Virus record (IMG/VR): IMGVR_UViG_3300048837_000290 | Location: 1-28,413 of that record | Source of the DNA: a virus | Length of the DNA: 28,413 bases | Reading direction: 5' to 3' (one strand) | Shown: one piece after another, positions 17,844 to 26,896 of the stretch | Numbering within the stretch: position 1 is the stretch's first letter | Layout of the letters: each line of letters opens with the position of its first letter | Position numbers and translations under genes: made by a program | The notes under the pieces: model-generated | Database searches by the model: none | Seen by the model: the letters and a program-made list of their open reading frames with translations, nothing else | What the model was told of the DNA's origin: nothing

Positions 17844-18581
17844 TTATGGTGTTCCAGCATTTCTTGCAGCCGTGAGCCGCTCGATAGGGGATAGTTCGTG
17901 CCAATTTGTTTTTCCTGTTCCGTGCCCGTTGGGAGTTGCCCCGCCACCTGTAGCGCTCGATCCTTTCAATATACTGTCTTTGTAAGGGTATTGCTCGACC
18001 ATAGCATTAAGCGCCTCTTCAAAATCAGCCAACTCTCCAGGTCTGTCATGAGAATATATCTGGTTGCCGTGCTGGTCATATGCTACGACTTTCCCGTTTT
18101 CGATCTTGAAATTCTGGCCGAACCTGGCCTCAACAAGGTCATGTGGGATAGCCATCTTGTCAGCAATGAACTTTGACCTTGCAAATCGGCCACCGATCAA
18201 CTCTTTGGTCAATATACCGTCCTTCTCTGCAACAACGGATTGAAGTTCGTCAATTTTTGACTGCATCGCTTTTGTTACTTCTGCCTTGACCTTTTCCACT
18301 TCTCCGGCATCAATAAGCTTCTTCTGGTCAAGGTTTTTCAATGTTTCGATAGCCTTCAAAGCGTCTTCTGGGTTCTCGATCCCTTCAAACTTCTTGACCT
18401 GCTTTTCCAGCTTTGACCGAGCGTCACGCTCTTTGTTCAGGGCAGTTGTCAATCCGGTAACTTCTTCGCTTGTCTTAAACCCGCCTTCGATGTCGAGCCG
18501 GTATTTGCCGTCTCTCTCAACGTATAATCCAGAAATAGCAGCATCAAGGCCGTCGATGGTGTCAAGAATTGGTTTTAACAT
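17844..18581 (-). CDS. Capsid scaffolding protein
   Basis: Product of 245 residues. The N-terminus GLYVERDGKYRLDIEGGF is followed by a long coiled coil (about residues 40-125, TALNKERDARSKLEKQVKKF and on), then GGRFARSKFIADKMAIPHDL, a DUF6651-like segment, then a Gly/Asn-rich linker and a basic C-terminus. These are the features of scaffolds that guide procapsid assembly and then leave. It lies directly before the major capsid gene and after a putative internal promoter, so the two are probably strongly co-expressed. Confidence 0.8.
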   Translation of the reverse strand: MLKPILDTIDGLDAAISGLYVERDGKYRLDIEGGFKTSEEVTGLTTALNKERDARSKLEKQVKKFEGIENPEDALKAIETLKNLDQKKLIDAGEVEKVKAEVTKAMQSKIDELQSVVAEKDGILTKELIGGRFARSKFIADKMAIPHDLVEARFGQNFKIENGKVVAYDQHGNQIYSHDRPGELADFEEALNAMVEQYPYKDSILKGSSATGGGATPNGHGTGKTNWHELSPIERLTAARNAGTP

Positions 18582-18712: not shown

Positions 18713-20779
18713 TCAAAGCTCATCCAGCCGATAAAGCCGACCCGTTTCAGGATCAACCAAATCCTTAAACGTAACCTTTCCGGACTGGATCAACGCAAGC
18801 CGTTTCGGGCCAACAACGTTTTTTTGGAACTGCTCTCCCCGTGATTCAAACCAACTGGCATATTCTCCCTTGTGAGATCCCCAAGTCAGTATATTGCGCC
18901 CCCCGTCTCCAATGGGGATGTCAGGGCGCGTTGTCCATGGCCTGGCCACTTCTTCAAATTCGTCTATGTCTATGCCGAGTTCGCGGAATGTCACTGTGAC
19001 AGGGATTTTGACGCATCTACAATTACTTGACAAAACCCCGTCCACATGGTACATTCCACTTAAACATTGGAGATCATAAACATGCCCAAAAAACTTTCTT
19101 GTCTTGATAGAGACAACATCTGTCAACAGTACATCTCCGGCGTAAACTCTGGTAAAATCGCTAAAGAGTTTGGAATTAACACTAACATTGTCTTGGTTGT
19201 TATCAAAAATGCCGGTATCAAACCCCTTAATGTCAAGCCTCATACATTTGATTGCCTCGGAGATAAACTCCCCATCGAAGAGATTATATCTCTTTACGTT
19301 TCTGGGATCTCTGAAAAGGCTATTGCCGGAAAGTTTAAAGTTTCCAGAAACGTCATAGCCAGGCTTTTGACCAAAAATGGGATTGAGCGGAGGGGAAAAA
19401 CATGCGCCAACCGTCTCATGATGTCTAAGCGAAGCCGTGCCGAAAACGTCAGAAACACCATGGCCGCAAATAAAGCTGTCAGATGCAAGCCGCAGCCAAA
19501 AAAGAGGAGAGAGAAGACTGCCAAAACCATCCAAGTCAAGCCCGCTAACGTTGGCAATGGAGAGGTTGAACTGGTGCAAAAACTCAGATCGAAAGGATTC
19601 AAGGTCACCCCTCAAAAGGCTTTCAAACGTTATAACCTCGACATCGCCTTTGATGAATTCCCCATCGCCGTGGAGGTGTTCGGAGGAGGCTGGCACACTT
19701 GTGGAAACCACGCCAGGCGTTTTAGAGAACGATTTGATGACATTTGCAATGCTGGAATCATTCCTGTTATTGTCTGGACCTCCAAAAATTACCCTATCAG
19801 CGACGGGATTGTGGAATATCTTGTCTCCCTTACGGATAGAATCAGCCGTGGAGAAACCTTTCCCTGTCAAGAACATGTGCTTTGGGGTAACGGTAAACCT
19901 TGCTCCGTTGGAAAGGACAAGCTCAAATACAATGCCTTCATAGGTGGCGACAAAAGCGGCGATCTTGTCAGGAGCAAAAACGGGAGTTTCAGCCGTCAAG
20001 CAATTGGGATGTAGCGGTATCGGTGGGCCCTCGCCAAGTTTATATTGATTGCCGTCATTGCAAGCACACCTGATGCAGGTCCCGGTTCCAGTCCGCATAT
20101 TGCTATTCTCCAAAACGCTCGACCACTTCCATTTTTTTACAATATCTGAATTAGCAGCCATCACAGCGCTCATAGCGGACACGTTAGCAGTCTGGACGAA
20201 AGTTCTTGCCAGTGTAACGGCTTCTTTACGGGTAAAATCTTTCATATGGCCCATGATGCTATCAACGAGCCCAGGATATCCTTTCCCCTGCAACATCCCC
20301 GCTCCGAGATCCTCAAGTAGCCCTTTCTGAACAGTTGCATCAAAGGACCGGTTCACCCAATCGCTTAAAACGTACCCACCCATGGGAGTTGTTTCAAAAA
20401 AAGACTTAAACTGTTCCGGAGATAAAGCAACGTTGTTAAATCCAGGAAGCTTACCACCAACGCTCATTGTCTGGCTATGATAGTTCGCAGATTCTGCCCC
20501 GGCCTGGCTCGCAAGGCTGGATATCTCACTTGTTACCTGTTCTCTGATGCCTGCTGTCAATGACTCAAGCTCTTTTATCAAATCTTGTCGTCTTAGCTGC
20601 TCCCATCTCCGCATCCGTTTGCTGGGATTTGACAAAATGTCATACGCGGCTTTTTCAATGGATTTCATTGCTGTTTTTAATGCAGCGATTTCCATCTTGT
20701 CGATATTGTACCGCCATATTATCTGCCGAGCCGTTTGGTATAACTCCATAAGCTCGTCCGGTTTGATATTTTTATCCAT
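18713..20779 (-). CDS. MuF / SPP1 gp7-like head morphogenesis protein interrupted by an intein
   Basis: Precursor of 688 residues; splicing would give 361 (259 + 102). MuF-type minor head proteins bind the portal and a few copies are packaged in the head. The N-extein is helical, ending in the family core CIRCACNDGNQYKLGEGPP then PLHPN. The C-extein begins CRCVKIPVTVTF and ends with the family-like FKDLVDPETGRLYRLDEL. The hallmark HPNCRC motif is split by the intein exactly between Asn259 and Cys587. It follows the portal gene by 6 bases, the usual portal-MuF-scaffold-capsid order. The ribosome binding site is weak, so translation may be coupled to the portal gene. Loss of splicing would destroy the conserved motif, so the intein must be active if the phage is viable. 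Confidence 0.9.
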   Translation of the reverse strand: MDKNIKPDELMELYQTARQIIWRYNIDKMEIAALKTAMKSIEKAAYDILSNPSKRMRRWEQLRRQDLIKELESLTAGIREQVTSEISSLASQAGAESANYHSQTMSVGGKLPGFNNVALSPEQFKSFFETTPMGGYVLSDWVNRSFDATVQKGLLEDLGAGMLQGKGYPGLVDSIMGHMKDFTRKEAVTLARTFVQTANVSAMSAVMAANSDIVKKWKWSSVLENSNMRTGTGTCIRCACNDGNQYKLGEGPPIPLHPNCLTAETPVFAPDKIAAFVATYEGIVFELVLSNGARFTVTPKHMFLTGKGFSTADSIRKGDKIFHNPVADRVIFGGPDNNRNDSSIANVIKSFSKTPGVVSTSVPASSEHLHGDGEFIKGDVEVITFESLLRGDLESFRSEFLHQFNLSIANVSGLDLDGFGSLLSPLFWLRLASDSFICGHGVSDVFGTASLRHHETVGACFSPPLNPIFGQKPGYDVSGNFKLSGNSLFRDPRNVKRYNLFDGEFISEAIKCMRLDIKGFDTGIFDNNQDNVSVNSKLFSDFTRVYAGDVLLTDVVSIKTRKFFGHVYDLQCLSGMYHVDGVLSSNCRCVKIPVTVTFRELGIDIDEFEEVARPWTTRPDIPIGDGGRNILTWGSHKGEYASWFESRGEQFQKNVVGPKRLALIQSGKVTFKDLVDPETGRLYRLDEL
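19022..20002 (-). mobile_element. Intein (327 residues) in the MuF gene
   Basis: Intein residues 260-586 of the precursor. Block A is CLTAETPVFAPDK with catalytic Cys260. Block B is ARFTVTPKHMFLT with the TxxH pair Thr298 and His301. Block F is HVYDLQCLSGMYHVDG with Asp569 and His578. Block G ends VLSSN followed by Cys587, so the C-terminal Asn586 and the +1 Cys nucleophile are present. The penultimate residue is Ser585 instead of the usual His, a substitution known in some active inteins. The central ~220 residues (about 325-545) contain no LAGLIDADG or HNH motif. Instead, the opposite strand of this stretch encodes a homing endonuclease. The insertion at the most conserved spot of the host protein is typical of inteins. 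Confidence 0.92.
19027..19055 (+). promoter_or_regulatory. Putative promoter for the antisense endonuclease gene
   Basis: Plus-strand TTGACA (19027-19032), a 17-base spacer and TACATT (19050-19055; 4 of 6 consensus bases) lie inside the sequence coding for the intein's C-terminal block. A start near 19062 would put a GGAG ribosome binding site (19069-19072) and the ATG (19082) right behind it. Confidence 0.45.
19082..20014 (+). CDS. Vsr-like (EDxHD/DUF559-type) homing endonuclease encoded antisense to the intein
   Basis: Product of 310 residues. The ATG at 19082 has GGAG 9 bases upstream; an in-frame TTG at 19067 overlaps that site and is unlikely. Two resolvase-like helix-turn-helix motifs lie at about residues 8-45 (SGKIAKEFGINTNIVLVVIK) and 63-101 (SEKAIAGKFKVSRNVIARLL), followed by a basic linker (105-157). 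A Vsr/DUF559-like nuclease core spans 158-250: Glu161/163, YNLDIAF with Asp187, IAVEVFGGGWH with Glu198, Trp204 and His205, His210, Asp219/220, and GIIPVIVW. This matches the EDxHD homing endonuclease group related to Vsr and I-Bth0305I. The gene lies codon-for-codon opposite the intein (endonuclease residue + precursor residue = 567). Its TAG stop is the complement of the MuF Leu256 codon. It would cut intein-free MuF alleles to spread the intein; that is inference. Confidence 0.82.
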   Translation: MPKKLSCLDRDNICQQYISGVNSGKIAKEFGINTNIVLVVIKNAGIKPLNVKPHTFDCLGDKLPIEEIISLYVSGISEKAIAGKFKVSRNVIARLLTKNGIERRGKTCANRLMMSKRSRAENVRNTMAANKAVRCKPQPKKRREKTAKTIQVKPANVGNGEVELVQKLRSKGFKVTPQKAFKRYNLDIAFDEFPIAVEVFGGGWHTCGNHARRFRERFDDICNAGIIPVIVWTSKNYPISDGIVEYLVSLTDRISRGETFPCQEHVLWGNGKPCSVGKDKLKYNAFIGGDKSGDLVRSKNGSFSRQAIGM

Positions 20780-20785
20780 TATCGC

Positions 20786-22258
20786 TTACGATACCGGGAA
20801 TTGAGAAGAAAGGCCTGTCAACGCACCTGTTGGGCCTGAAGTCCGAGATTCATCTTCAATCATAGCCTTGACATCTTCCCAGTCCCAATTATCCCCAATT
20901 AGTCCCCTGCGTTTAAATTCCTGGTGCGCCTGCTCCCGGGAAATAACGCCCATGTCAATAGCTTTAAGGATCAAATCCGGGTCCAGGCCGAATGCCGGGT
21001 TGAAATCTGTATTAATATTAACAAATGGTTCCTGGCCGTCTTTTATCCCCATCCACATACCTGCAAACATCAAGGCGTTATCAATCGCGTCTTTGCAGGC
21101 CATGGCCCAATCTTTAAGCACACTGGTTGACTCAGTTGTTTCCTGCTGAGATTGATATGCGGTTTTGCTGCCGGAATTATAATTTTGTTGGAGAGTAACA
21201 AGACCGTAAAGCGCCATTTTTTCCTCAAGCGCCGTTAATTCTTCCTGGCCCTTATCAACGGCATCCGGATTCACAGATACACTTTTTAGGTCAGCGCTGC
21301 TGTCCATTGAGTGGCACATTCGCCCGGGTCCGAACTCAACATTACCATCTGAATCCGTAAGGAGTTTTCCGAACCACGGCGGACGGCGTACAAAAGCCAT
21401 CAAGCTGACCTGATCGCATGTAGCTTGCCAATGCCGTTTATTTAATTGCGCTAAATCTTCGAGTGCCGGAGCGAAGGCGTCACCGATCTGTTCACCGGGT
21501 GCAAAAAAAGCAATAGGTATTTCAGGAATGCTTGTTTTCCCGTCATCATATAAAAAAACATTGCCTTTATCATCTTTGCGATAAATCTCCCACGATCCCC
21601 GGCGCAAAACACGGACCTGCTCTGTTTTAACATCGTCGTTATCAAACTCACCAGGTATATCAATCACTCTTTCAAGAATCCTGATCGTGTCCAATATCCG
21701 CTTTCCGTTTTCGTAAACAACTCTAAATCCGAGGATATCAGGCTGGTGAACAACAACAAAGAACGGGCGCCAACCTTTCTCTTCGTCAATGCCTGATGTT
21801 TTTATTCTCCATATCCCTTGTTCCGCGTCGTAAAATTCAAACCTTCCGTTTTCTGTCCTGGTTTTAACCTGCGGGTAATCAACAAGCACCGCGACCATGC
21901 CATCATCAATACCTGACTCAAAAAGCATCTGGCCCCATGTTCTTAGATTATTTCCTTGCTGATCAACGTCTGACTCTATCATCTCAAATTTTTCTTTGCT
22001 TGGAGAATCTTCGCTTATTTTAACAGGCTCTGAAAAAACAAGCCCTGTCAGGTAGTTCCTGGTGCGCTTATAGCCGTTGTAAAGATACCCACTTTTAAGC
22101 CTGACCTGGTAATCATCAAAATGCTCTGCGCTTTGCTTGGGTAGATATTCTGTCCCGGCTGAAATCATTGCAGGGGTTCCGCCTATCAATGTCTTTACAA
22201 GCTTGCACCGTTCTGCTGCGTCTTTGAAGTCGTTGCTTTTTTCAAATACTTTTTCCAT
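20786..22258 (-). CDS. Portal protein (DUF4055 type)
   Basis: Product of 490 residues, starting immediately after the large terminase stop (TAA then ATG). The sequence shows the DUF4055 portal pattern: LVKTLIGGTPAMISAGTEYL, RTRNYLTGLVFSEPVKISED, GIDDGMVAVLVDYPQVKTRT, then a middle with PEIPIAFFAPGEQIGDAFAP and LAQLNKRHWQATCDQVSLMA, and a C-terminal helical region with QQNYNSGSKTAYQSQQETTE. The portal forms the dodecameric DNA gate at one capsid vertex, docks the terminase and nucleates head assembly. The neighbours (terminase upstream, MuF downstream) are the expected ones. Confidence 0.85.
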   Translation of the reverse strand: MEKVFEKSNDFKDAAERCKLVKTLIGGTPAMISAGTEYLPKQSAEHFDDYQVRLKSGYLYNGYKRTRNYLTGLVFSEPVKISEDSPSKEKFEMIESDVDQQGNNLRTWGQMLFESGIDDGMVAVLVDYPQVKTRTENGRFEFYDAEQGIWRIKTSGIDEEKGWRPFFVVVHQPDILGFRVVYENGKRILDTIRILERVIDIPGEFDNDDVKTEQVRVLRRGSWEIYRKDDKGNVFLYDDGKTSIPEIPIAFFAPGEQIGDAFAPALEDLAQLNKRHWQATCDQVSLMAFVRRPPWFGKLLTDSDGNVEFGPGRMCHSMDSSADLKSVSVNPDAVDKGQEELTALEEKMALYGLVTLQQNYNSGSKTAYQSQQETTESTSVLKDWAMACKDAIDNALMFAGMWMGIKDGQEPFVNINTDFNPAFGLDPDLILKAIDMGVISREQAHQEFKRRGLIGDNWDWEDVKAMIEDESRTSGPTGALTGLSSQFPVS

Positions 22259-24300: not shown

Positions 24301-24768
24301 ATGAACGAACTTACCCACAAACAATTGCTTAACAAAATAAAACAGTATGATAATATAAACAACGAGGGTGGCGAAGGTTACAACCCGTACCGCGACGAGC
24401 TTTACCGAAGACAAGACGAACATGAAAAAAACCGCGAAAAATCATTAGAAGAAAAAGAATACGCCATCCTTAAAAAAAAGACATCCGCATATCGTCCAAG
24501 CGGATGTTACACCGATGCAGAAAAAGAATATTTAGAAAACCTTGAGAACGAATTGATTGATATTAGAAAAATGCAACATGACCGTTTTCTTAACACCTGG
24601 ACAATTGAAACTACAAAGATACGGCGCGAAGAGTGGAACACATTTGCAAGGGCAGCAATGGCAAAATACTCAAAAAAAGAAATTTCAGGAGTATTATTCA
24701 AAAAACAAAGAGAACAAGGATGGACAATGGAAGAGTTGAAAAAAGCAGTTAAAACACACAACCTTTAA
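24301..24768 (+). CDS. Unknown charged helical protein, first gene of the plus-strand operon
   Basis: Product of 155 residues with an AAGGAG ribosome binding site 7 bases before the ATG. The protein is highly charged and helical (RRQDEHEKNREKSLEEKEYA; TDAEKEYLENLENELIDIRK), with a C-terminal segment AMAKYSKKEISGVLFKKQRE then GWTMEELKKAVKTHNL that could be a small helix-turn-helix-like or effector-binding end. No enzyme motif or membrane segment is present. It is transcribed opposite to the surrounding phage genes from a strong promoter, as with morons, anti-host or control genes. I do not recognise a family. Confidence 0.7.
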   Translation: MNELTHKQLLNKIKQYDNINNEGGEGYNPYRDELYRRQDEHEKNREKSLEEKEYAILKKKTSAYRPSGCYTDAEKEYLENLENELIDIRKMQHDRFLNTWTIETTKIRREEWNTFARAAMAKYSKKEISGVLFKKQREQGWTMEELKKAVKTHNL

Positions 24769-24823: not shown

Positions 24824-25330
24824 ATGGAAAACAAAATTGTAAAAGCAGCAAAGGCGGCAAAGGCAGACGGCTTTGAATACATGACCAGCGTTGTTAAATC
24901 TGTTTACTCGACTATTTACTTTAATGTTGTTGCAATAGATGACGTGATATCTAAAGGCAAGTGGATTGCTTGCCAGAAAAAAACAGGTTTTGGGTGGCAT
25001 GGCCCCGTAGGTGTTTCAGCTTCTGAGTTACCTGATAAGTGTATCGGAAAGGCAACCGCATTGGATAGATATTGCAAACAACAAAACAAAGCCCGTTTCG
25101 CCGGGCACAACAAAAGGATAAAGACAATGGAATTCAATAAAGAATACGTAAAAACAATTTTGGAAGAAAACTTTTTAAACTATGATGATTCATTAAGCTT
25201 ACGTGACTGTACCGAGCTTGAACTTGAAAACTACCCTGAATGTTTCAACTGTTTTTTTGAAACTTCCTGGGATGAACTGACAACAAATGAACAAAAAAAA
25301 CGAAAAGAACTTATTTTGAGCATAGTTTGA
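24824..25330 (+). CDS. Unknown two-part protein, second gene of the plus-strand operon
   Basis: Product of 168 residues with AGGA 9 bases before the ATG. Residues 1-~100 are a small basic-to-mixed domain (KAAKAAKADGFEYMTSVVKS; SKGKWIACQKKTGFGWHGPV; LDRYCKQQNK). Residues ~102-168, starting MEFNKEYVKTILEENFLNYD, are acidic with DDSLSLRDCTELELENYPEC. The junction (residues about 89-101) corresponds to a hairpin plus ribosome binding site and a second ATG, so the gene looks like two former genes read through in one frame. No family recognised for either half. Confidence 0.65.
   Translation: MENKIVKAAKAAKADGFEYMTSVVKSVYSTIYFNVVAIDDVISKGKWIACQKKTGFGWHGPVGVSASELPDKCIGKATALDRYCKQQNKARFAGHNKRIKTMEFNKEYVKTILEENFLNYDDSLSLRDCTELELENYPECFNCFFETSWDELTTNEQKKRKELILSIV
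25127..25330 (+). CDS. Possible separately translated acidic protein inside the previous frame
   Basis: An in-frame ATG at 25127 (codon 102 of the larger frame) is preceded by AAAGGATAAAGACA, a good ribosome binding site, and by a hairpin (GCCCG/CGGGC at 25091-25106). This repeats the leader design seen before the previous gene. The product would have 67 residues, be acidic and contain EELS-like helices (DELTTNEQKKRKELILSIV at the end). Either the shorter protein is made alongside the long one, or the long frame is a recent read-through created by loss of the first gene's stop. Confidence 0.5.
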   Translation: MEFNKEYVKTILEENFLNYDDSLSLRDCTELELENYPECFNCFFETSWDELTTNEQKKRKELILSIV

Positions 25331-25722: not shown

Positions 25723-26274
25723 CTATCTCTGCTCCTTTAAAATGTTTCTTTTTACGTATTTAAAAGCAAGGCTCGCTGAATTACATAAATCAAAATCAAT
25801 GCACTGTTCGCCAGCCAACCTGGCACAAACAGCATCGGAGAAATCTCTATATCTCCCAAGGCTGCGTTGCCTACCGTTATTTGATATTTTTACCTCCCAC
25901 TGGCCCCTGTTATTATCCCAACTAACGCCGGTTATTCCTGATTTATTATCATTTCGCGACCCAGTGTTCTTATTATTACAAGATTGTGACACTTCTCTTA
26001 GATTATTAATTCTATTGTCAAGACGATCTCTATTGATGTGATCAACCTGATGCTCTGGGAAATAACCATTAACAAAAAACCATATCAACCTGTGAGTATA
26101 GTATGCTTTATTGCCTATATAGACCTGCCTATACCCTGTGCTTTTATCGACACAGCCGGCTTCGTCTCCTGTTGCTACACGTGGACTCCTTGGTTTTTTC
26201 CATTTAAGAACACCAAAATCAGGATTATAATCAAACAATTCACGTATTTTTTTTTGAGTTAATTTTTCCTGCAT
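25723..26274 (-). CDS. HNH endonuclease with AP2-like DNA-binding domain
   Basis: Product of 183 residues from the ATG at 26272-26274, which has AGGAG 6 bases upstream; an upstream in-frame ATG (26340) lies in the previous gene and has no such site. The HNH core is HRLIWFFVNGYFPEHQVDHI then NRDRLDNRINNLREV, with His61, Asp78, His79 and Asn residues at 87 and 90. A C-terminal AP2-like domain follows (SGITGVSWDNNRGQWEVKIS, then GRYRDFSDAV). This pairing is typical of free-standing phage homing endonucleases. It is inserted cleanly between the cysteine-rich gene and the MazG gene, with stop and start abutting the latter. Confidence 0.88.
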   Translation of the reverse strand: MQEKLTQKKIRELFDYNPDFGVLKWKKPRSPRVATGDEAGCVDKSTGYRQVYIGNKAYYTHRLIWFFVNGYFPEHQVDHINRDRLDNRINNLREVSQSCNNKNTGSRNDNKSGITGVSWDNNRGQWEVKISNNGRQRSLGRYRDFSDAVCARLAGEQCIDFDLCNSASLAFKYVKRNILKEQR

Positions 26275-26299
26275 GCAAGCTCCTGGTATTCGTAGAGTG

Positions 26300-26896
26300 T
26301 CATTTGCGTAGCCTTTCAACGGTGGTATTAGCCATATCAATTACGCCGTCTTCGTGCCCGTGCCCGTAAAAATGTTTTGCTGCCGTTTTGTAATCAAATT
26401 CCCTAATTTTTAAAGCATCATCAAGTGACATGGGTGGCATGTAAAGTCCGTATTCGTTTGAAGTCCTGATAACGCTCTCGATGTATGACCAATGCGCGTT
26501 AATCATTTCTTCTATCTTGATTTTATTCTTTGAGACAACCGACTCTTGCCGATAATCTTTATCTTTGATTTTGGCTTTAAGCCTTGCATTTGCAGCGTCA
26601 ATCTCCGATCTCAAATTGTCTGACATCAACGGAGCATCGTGTTGCAACCTGGCATCATTGCTAAACCCTGACGCGTCTTTGCAATTATCGCAATTCTCAC
26701 CGCAATTCGAGCAATTCGAGCAAAGGCCGTTAATTTCAAAGTCTTTTTTGTTTCCCTCAATTGGCTTCCACTCAGCTTCCATATCGCTCTCATCGTTTGC
26801 ATAAATGCATGAGTACGGTGGCTCTGGATCAACGCATTGAACATCTACTATGCACGGGCCTGTTTGATCGTTACAATAGTTACAACTGTATTTCAT
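26300..26896 (-). CDS. Cysteine-rich protein, possible zinc binder, unknown function
   Basis: Product of 198 residues with a strong AAGGAG site 10 bases before the ATG. The N-terminal third has two Cys groups: CNYCND near the start and, at 59-72, CSNCSNCGENCDNC, a dense CxxC series that could bind zinc or an iron-sulfur cluster. The C-terminal two-thirds is helical and charged (RSEIDAANARLKAKIKDKDY; LDDALKIREFDYKTAAKHFY). The start overlaps the stop of the broken deaminase (TAATG at 26894-26898). I recognise no family. Confidence 0.75.
   Translation of the reverse strand: MKYSCNYCNDQTGPCIVDVQCVDPEPPYSCIYANDESDMEAEWKPIEGNKKDFEINGLCSNCSNCGENCDNCKDASGFSNDARLQHDAPLMSDNLRSEIDAANARLKAKIKDKDYRQESVVSKNKIKIEEMINAHWSYIESVIRTSNEYGLYMPPMSLDDALKIREFDYKTAAKHFYGHGHEDGVIDMANTTVERLRK

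Follow-up and report, generated by a model that had tools for sequence, protein, structure and literature searches.

The window, as the whole stretch of viral DNA analysed here is termed (28,413 nucleotides; positions 1 to 28,413 of IMG/VR record IMGVR_UViG_3300048837_000290), encodes on its minus strand the 688-residue precursor of a MuF-like minor head protein (18713–20779), which matches the head-morphogenesis family phrog_241 (E = 6e-40) and, weakly, PF04233 (Phage_Mu_F), and is flanked by the portal (20786–22258) and scaffold (17844–18581) genes. Wholly opposite this frame, on the plus strand, lies a gene of 310 codons (19082–20014, from the ATG at 19082 to the stop at 20014), assigned as a homing endonuclease gene on the evidence of 102 distinct homologous loci, of selection on its frame and of a match to the nuclease I-Bth0305I (PDB entry 3r3p). 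The MuF-like frame is uninterrupted along its full length, confirming the initial annotation, which had claimed that it stays open through the entire antisense gene, and the two frames are exactly codon-on-codon, sense position 1 facing antisense position 3. Elsewhere in the window, an HNH endonuclease gene is found at 25726–26340 on the minus strand (phrog_99, E = 6e-63), and two plus-strand ORFs without a PHROG match (24301–24765 and 24824–25327) adjoin the terminase genes. An Rfam search of the window was negative for structured RNAs.

Within the LHPN/CRC sequence of MuF, a stretch of 327 residues (19022–20002, minus strand) matches PF14890 (Intein_splicing, E = 2e-7). Its first residue, C1, is encoded at 20000–20002 and its last, N327, at 19022–19024, followed by the C+1 nucleophile (19019–19021). 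The splicing motifs comprise T39 and H42 in block B (TPKH, 19877–19888, minus strand), HVYDL in block F, SSN in block G and the +1 Cys; C1, G23, H42, G49 and N327 are invariant among 52 intein relatives. Ser, not His, precedes the terminal Asn, and Ser is likewise found there in 32 of 89 loci. In an AlphaFold model, the terminal parts are predicted with pLDDT above 90 and the middle (residues ~129–285) mostly with pLDDT below 50; the Hint core superposes on the Mtu RecA intein with a Z score of 12.8 over 106 residues (1.6 Å). Judged by profile match and predicted fold, the intein that had been proposed for the MuF gene is indeed a Hint intein, its self-excision and ligation being inferred only.

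Domains and distribution of the plus-strand protein

The AlphaFold2 model of the plus-strand protein (pLDDT 87.8) comprises two three-helix helix–turn–helix (HTH) units, a helical linker and an α/β nuclease. The HTH domains, residues 10–43 and 55–98 (19109–19375, plus strand; mostly pLDDT >90), support the two motifs that had been put forward in the initial annotation; HTH_7 was detected in 39 of 69 endonuclease members, alongside resolvase-type HTH matches, and a profile of these 69 members matched the tandem-HTH protein 2lvs (E = 8e-7). With hmmsearch, the same profile also matched I-Bth0305I (3r3p, E = 8.6e-7) and NGO0050 (3hrl, E = 6e-6), and VIA-align gave the model Z scores of 11.0 and 10.6 with Vsr (1cw0 and 1vsr), 10.5 with 3hrl and 9.5 with 3r3p. 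The putative Vsr/EDxHD core, residues 156–256 (19547–19849, plus strand), contains the conserved E161, Y184, D187, E198 and R217: Y184, D187 and E198 are present in all 91 endonuclease sequences, while in the 69-member alignment E161 is invariant and R217 nearly so. A His at position 205 occurs in only 51 of 72 aligned sequences, and any correspondence of these residues to the letters of the EDxHD motif is tentative. The proposed assignment as a Vsr/EDxHD-type nuclease is supported by both profile and fold, cleavage being inferred only.

A search of phage nucleotide sequences with the intein DNA gave no match, and protein searches were therefore used. With the plus-strand protein as a query, tblastn identified 114 phage records (E <= 1e-5), the hosts including Gordonia, Mycobacterium, Salmonella, Escherichia, Klebsiella, Vibrio, Pseudomonas, Haemophilus and others. 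Apart from those of Acinetobacter phages, all records opened have the endonuclease antisense to an intein-bearing gene of head-morphogenesis type. Scans of IMG/VR added 115 further matches, relatives being searched for with sub-alignments of a diverse 18-member alignment. Deduplication left 102 distinct nested loci, all in the codon-on-codon register; one locus (L034), in which the sense frame stops at an apparent assembly break, was left out. Vibrio phage H2 had been considered to lack the endonuclease, a candidate rejected when a divergent antisense copy was found. Salmonella phage PK1 was the only record found in which the antisense ORF is annotated (1411–2220), as a hypothetical protein.

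Pfam Phage_Mu_F was matched by 60 of 72 N-exteins. Near the junction, the intein host proteins of five loci (L087, L089, L090, L093 and L103) are unlike MuF and are possibly other head proteins. A few relatives, fEg-Eco06/KMB36 and Sejanus, carry the intein at other MuF sites. Loci with the element at other MuF sites are L009, L025 and L023, one of these sites (STT/CRARDG) being found in phages near carriers of the N/CRS site.

Register and selection in the two frames

The codon-on-codon antisense register often yields long spurious open frames in high-GC or biased genes, CF81a having an open antisense frame of 940 codons, and the plus-strand frame could accordingly be no more than a shadow, open and conserved only through conservation of the sense intein. 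The probability left to this explanation is negligible. In the window, an open antisense frame is improbable under synonymous-codon permutation of the sense gene (p = 1.2e-4), and across the 102 loci only two of the 5079 Leu and Ser codons in the overlap are TTA, CTA or TCA, which would create antisense stops, against 964 expected from extein usage; the two, one in L079 and one in L063, are each a lone nonsense mutation of the endonuclease gene. A chance origin of the open antisense frame is excluded.

The strict one-to-one pairing of codons allows every change to be scored as synonymous or non-synonymous in either frame. In all 22 related pairs, the overlap differs most often at sense position 1, the wobble position of the antisense frame, whereas the exteins of the same pairs differ most often at sense position 3. 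In nine pairs, omega_anti is 0.26 (0.22–0.32) in the overlap versus 1.15 (1.01–1.30) in extein controls. The pairs are drawn from related phages, so that the pairwise substitution tests are not fully independent. A shadow frame would also leave unexplained that the antisense proteins resemble nucleases and HTH proteins of solved structure, that the start codon is preceded by Shine–Dalgarno and promoter signals and that a free-standing homologue exists without an opposite sense frame; the latter, together with the wobble pattern and the omega values, already refutes it.

Non-nested copies were found only in Acinetobacter phages of Obolenskvirus type (L021, L031 and L131), in which the endonuclease gene adjoins an intact, intein-free MuF gene. 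The strand opposite these copies contains 12–13 stop codons in the nested register, whereas the nested loci are without sense stops. The free-standing copies branch inside the nested clade (support 0.95–0.98), a placement that makes them appear to be escapees from the nested state. The sequence HVHSL opposite their start region resembles block F and is a possible remnant of it, a likeness that is suggestive only. A fractured split intein was also considered for Acinetobacter phages IME285 and BUCT629 and was rejected; their MuF is intact and intein-free, and the endonuclease copy is therefore free-standing.

In the sense frame, omega_sense is 0.45 over the whole overlap, 0.55–0.65 opposite the N-terminal 60% of the endonuclease and 0.21–0.28 opposite its C-terminal quarter, which corresponds to intein blocks A and B; constraint is lowest opposite the second HTH domain and linker and highest opposite the endonuclease C-terminus. 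The weaker constraint on the intein middle and its low model confidence are in keeping with a functional endonuclease opposite a dead, non-splicing insert held open by chance or against polar effects. Such an insert is highly improbable, however: C1, the block B His and the terminal Asn are invariant in the 52 relatives, omega_sense is low opposite the endonuclease C-terminal end, sense stops are abundant opposite the free-standing copies and absent from nested loci, and the host gene encodes a head morphogenesis protein. Both strands are genuinely coding, with selection acting on both frames, and since omega_sense remains below 1 in the middle, the intein linker may not be wholly passive.

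It had been proposed that the two products are spatially sorted, the nuclease core and the HTH motifs lying opposite a featureless intein middle. Broadly, the omega_sense gradient agrees with such sorting, and the HTH domains and linker do face residues 129–285. The proposal does not hold, however, for the active site of the nuclease. Constraint is tight in both frames there, D187 and E198 lying opposite a conserved sense stretch (a V/I-rich strand followed by FHGDG; intein residues 109–124). The sense motif (D/H)(F/L)HGDG, residues 109–114 (19661–19678, minus strand), lies opposite the catalytic strand [VI]AVEV, and its codon position 1 retains 1.5–1.7 bits where the facing antisense residue is fourfold degenerate. 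That the motif merely mirrors the nuclease strand was considered and rejected, as site-wise sense conservation exceeds antisense demands. FHGDG sits outside the classical Hint core, and no function is known for it.

Predicted expression signals within blocks F and G

The endonuclease start codon (ATG, 19082–19084, plus strand) lies opposite the CAT codon of the block F His (intein H307), a pairing that recurs in relatives (84 of 89 loci). Upstream, a predicted Shine–Dalgarno sequence, GGAG (19069–19072, plus strand), lies opposite the DLQ residues of block F. Shine–Dalgarno complementarity extends across the family, reaching at least 4 nt in 69 of 89 loci, with a mean length of 4.6 nt versus 3.2 nt in synonymous shuffles (p = 2e-13).

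Within the 99 nt upstream of the start codon, a consensus scan further predicted a promoter on the plus strand, with a −35 element TTGACA (19027–19032) on the last intein codons (LSS of LSSN/C) and, after a 17-nt spacer, a −10 element TACATT (19050–19055) with TG upstream. This σ70-like promoter beats synonymous shuffles of the window (p = 0.005). Over 79 loci, the promoter score against such shuffles has a mean z of 1.76 (SEM 0.17), as opposed to −0.23 to 0.13 in controls taken from the sense strand of the same stretch and from antisense windows elsewhere in the gene. Individually, the promoter reaches p < 0.05 in 39–44% of members; many, above all among high-GC phages, have only a weak signal or none.

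The distance from the −10 element to the ATG clusters at 26–31 or 45 nt across the family. Among inteins with a scored promoter, those ending in SN have the near promoter, as in the window, in 19 of 21 cases, and those ending in HN have the −10 element on the GII codons, 45 nt upstream, in nine of 11. This association between penultimate residue and promoter position is partly built in, because a TTGACA that spans the junction specifies Ser-Asn, and the inteins compared come from related lineages. The promoter and Shine–Dalgarno signals within blocks F and G exceed the synonymous-shuffle expectation; antisense expression itself is inferred only.

Mobility and relation to known systems

A search for intein-positive and intein-free MuF alleles, as suggested in the initial annotation, found both, precise empty sites being present in Escherichia phage SZH-1 and Salmonella phage T102. 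The N-extein of the window itself has no relative in IMG/VR, and hence no empty allele of this phage is known. Comparison of Snoke (Kagunavirus) with Jersey (Jerseyvirus) revealed 90–98% identity across the intein in 100-nt bins, against 59–74% in upstream extein bins; downstream, identity is 78–86% over ~400 nt and then falls to 59–65%. At the protein level, the endonucleases are 95–97% and the N-exteins 73–75% identical. Such a graded downstream tract is as expected from co-conversion. With the empty sites, these alignments show that the intein element is mobile and has been transferred horizontally between genera.

Some endonuclease copies are interrupted. The closest relatives of the window (L001 and L002) carry one in-frame TGA in the endonuclease that is silent in the sense frame, and L079 and L063 each carry a single endonuclease nonsense codon opposite an intact sense intein. 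The stops in L001, L002 and L063 imply that some copies are probably inactive, and those in all four loci look like the ordinary decay of a homing endonuclease gene, probably at an early stage. According to the initial annotation, homologous inteins with a broken plus frame and a conserved intein frame would count against its proposal; these were met only as single stops in two loci.

Phage homing endonucleases can also exclude markers of co-infecting phages, and with its invariant catalytic residues the nuclease might now serve in another role of this kind rather than in homing. This remains unlikely, as homing would be expected to produce just such a recent transfer of the complete intein from one genus to another, flanked by a graded tract, and stop codons in some copies indicate that the gene is dispensable.

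The usual place of an intein's endonuclease is between splicing blocks B and F. The predicted folds, dual selection, conserved catalytic residues, enriched signals, empty sites and graded-tract transfer documented here make it very likely that the window contains a mobile intein whose homing endonuclease is encoded between these blocks by a separate gene on the opposite strand, and not as an in-frame domain. Read on the minus strand, the MuF precursor would be produced and the Hint halves (~1–65 and 286–327) would come together in one fold and remove the insert; the translated middle would be a linker, probably disordered and for the most part merely tolerated, whose sequence is set by the opposite strand. 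Read on the plus strand, the promoter and Shine–Dalgarno sequence within the block F and G codons would drive synthesis of the 310-residue protein, whose two HTH domains would recognize intein-free MuF DNA for cutting by the Vsr/EDxHD nuclease; recombination with the occupied allele would then copy in the intein and some flanking DNA. Splicing, cleavage, antisense transcription and timing are inferences, in the absence of biochemical, transcript or proteomic data.

The window intein resembles large inteins such as PI-PfuI, PI-PkoII and the Mtu RecA intein in its Hint domain, in the placement of the endonuclease between blocks B and F and in mobility between alleles. Unlike in inteins of the PI-PfuI type, however, the endonuclease is a separate opposite-strand protein that has a start codon, Shine–Dalgarno sequence and predicted promoter to itself, and translation of the precursor frame runs through the complement of its gene. 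With I-Bth0305I it shares, by profile and predicted fold, a Vsr-like catalytic core; it differs in going with an intein rather than a phage group I intron, in its two resolvase-like HTH domains and in being coded antisense to protein-coding DNA. Fractured genes, reportedly described by Dassa et al. in 2009, are said to contain split inteins whose halves are separated by a free-standing gene for an EDxHD endonuclease. They likewise combine an intein and an EDxHD-family endonuclease in phage DNA, but there the intein is split and the endonuclease has its own DNA, whereas the window has an unbroken intein and an endonuclease encoded by one and the same DNA; indeed, the sense frame has no stop opposite the endonuclease, and the locus does not qualify as a fractured split intein. 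In the nuclear S1506 group I introns of Porphyra, ORFs for His-Cys box homing endonucleases lie on the complementary strand (PMC2585584). An endonuclease gene is thus also found opposite a self-splicing element, but the intron RNA is non-coding, with the ORF in a peripheral intron extension and no double coding (PMC2585584).

No published description of an antisense endonuclease within an intein was found in the open-access literature, to which the search was limited, so that a prior description elsewhere is not excluded. The architecture, in which an intein and an endonuclease are encoded antiparallel in the same codons, is real and widespread, and apparently undescribed. Its mode of action, that of a homing intein, is of a known kind; the way of encoding is new. 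It is probable that such 'antisense inteins' form a categorically distinct class of mobile inteins, defined by a full antisense unit with signals encoded in blocks F and G and spread among the phages of at least two bacterial phyla, the endonuclease being of EDxHD type, 230–310 codons long and codon-on-codon opposite the intein.

To our knowledge, there are very few long antisense overlaps for which selection on both proteins has been demonstrated, and whether such overlaps are real in prokaryotes is disputed. Dual coding is here proved comparatively by about a hundred distinct loci from nature, with a built-in control in the free-standing copies that gained opposite-strand stops. The arrangement provides a real example of what the Rodin–Ohno hypothesis postulates, exact codon-on-codon coding on antiparallel strands. 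It also means that well-studied phages of Salmonella and E. coli harbour a nuclease gene that almost all annotations lack. Finally, it is a new means by which an intein can carry an endonuclease, the splicing motifs doubling as predicted promoter, Shine–Dalgarno sequence and start codon.
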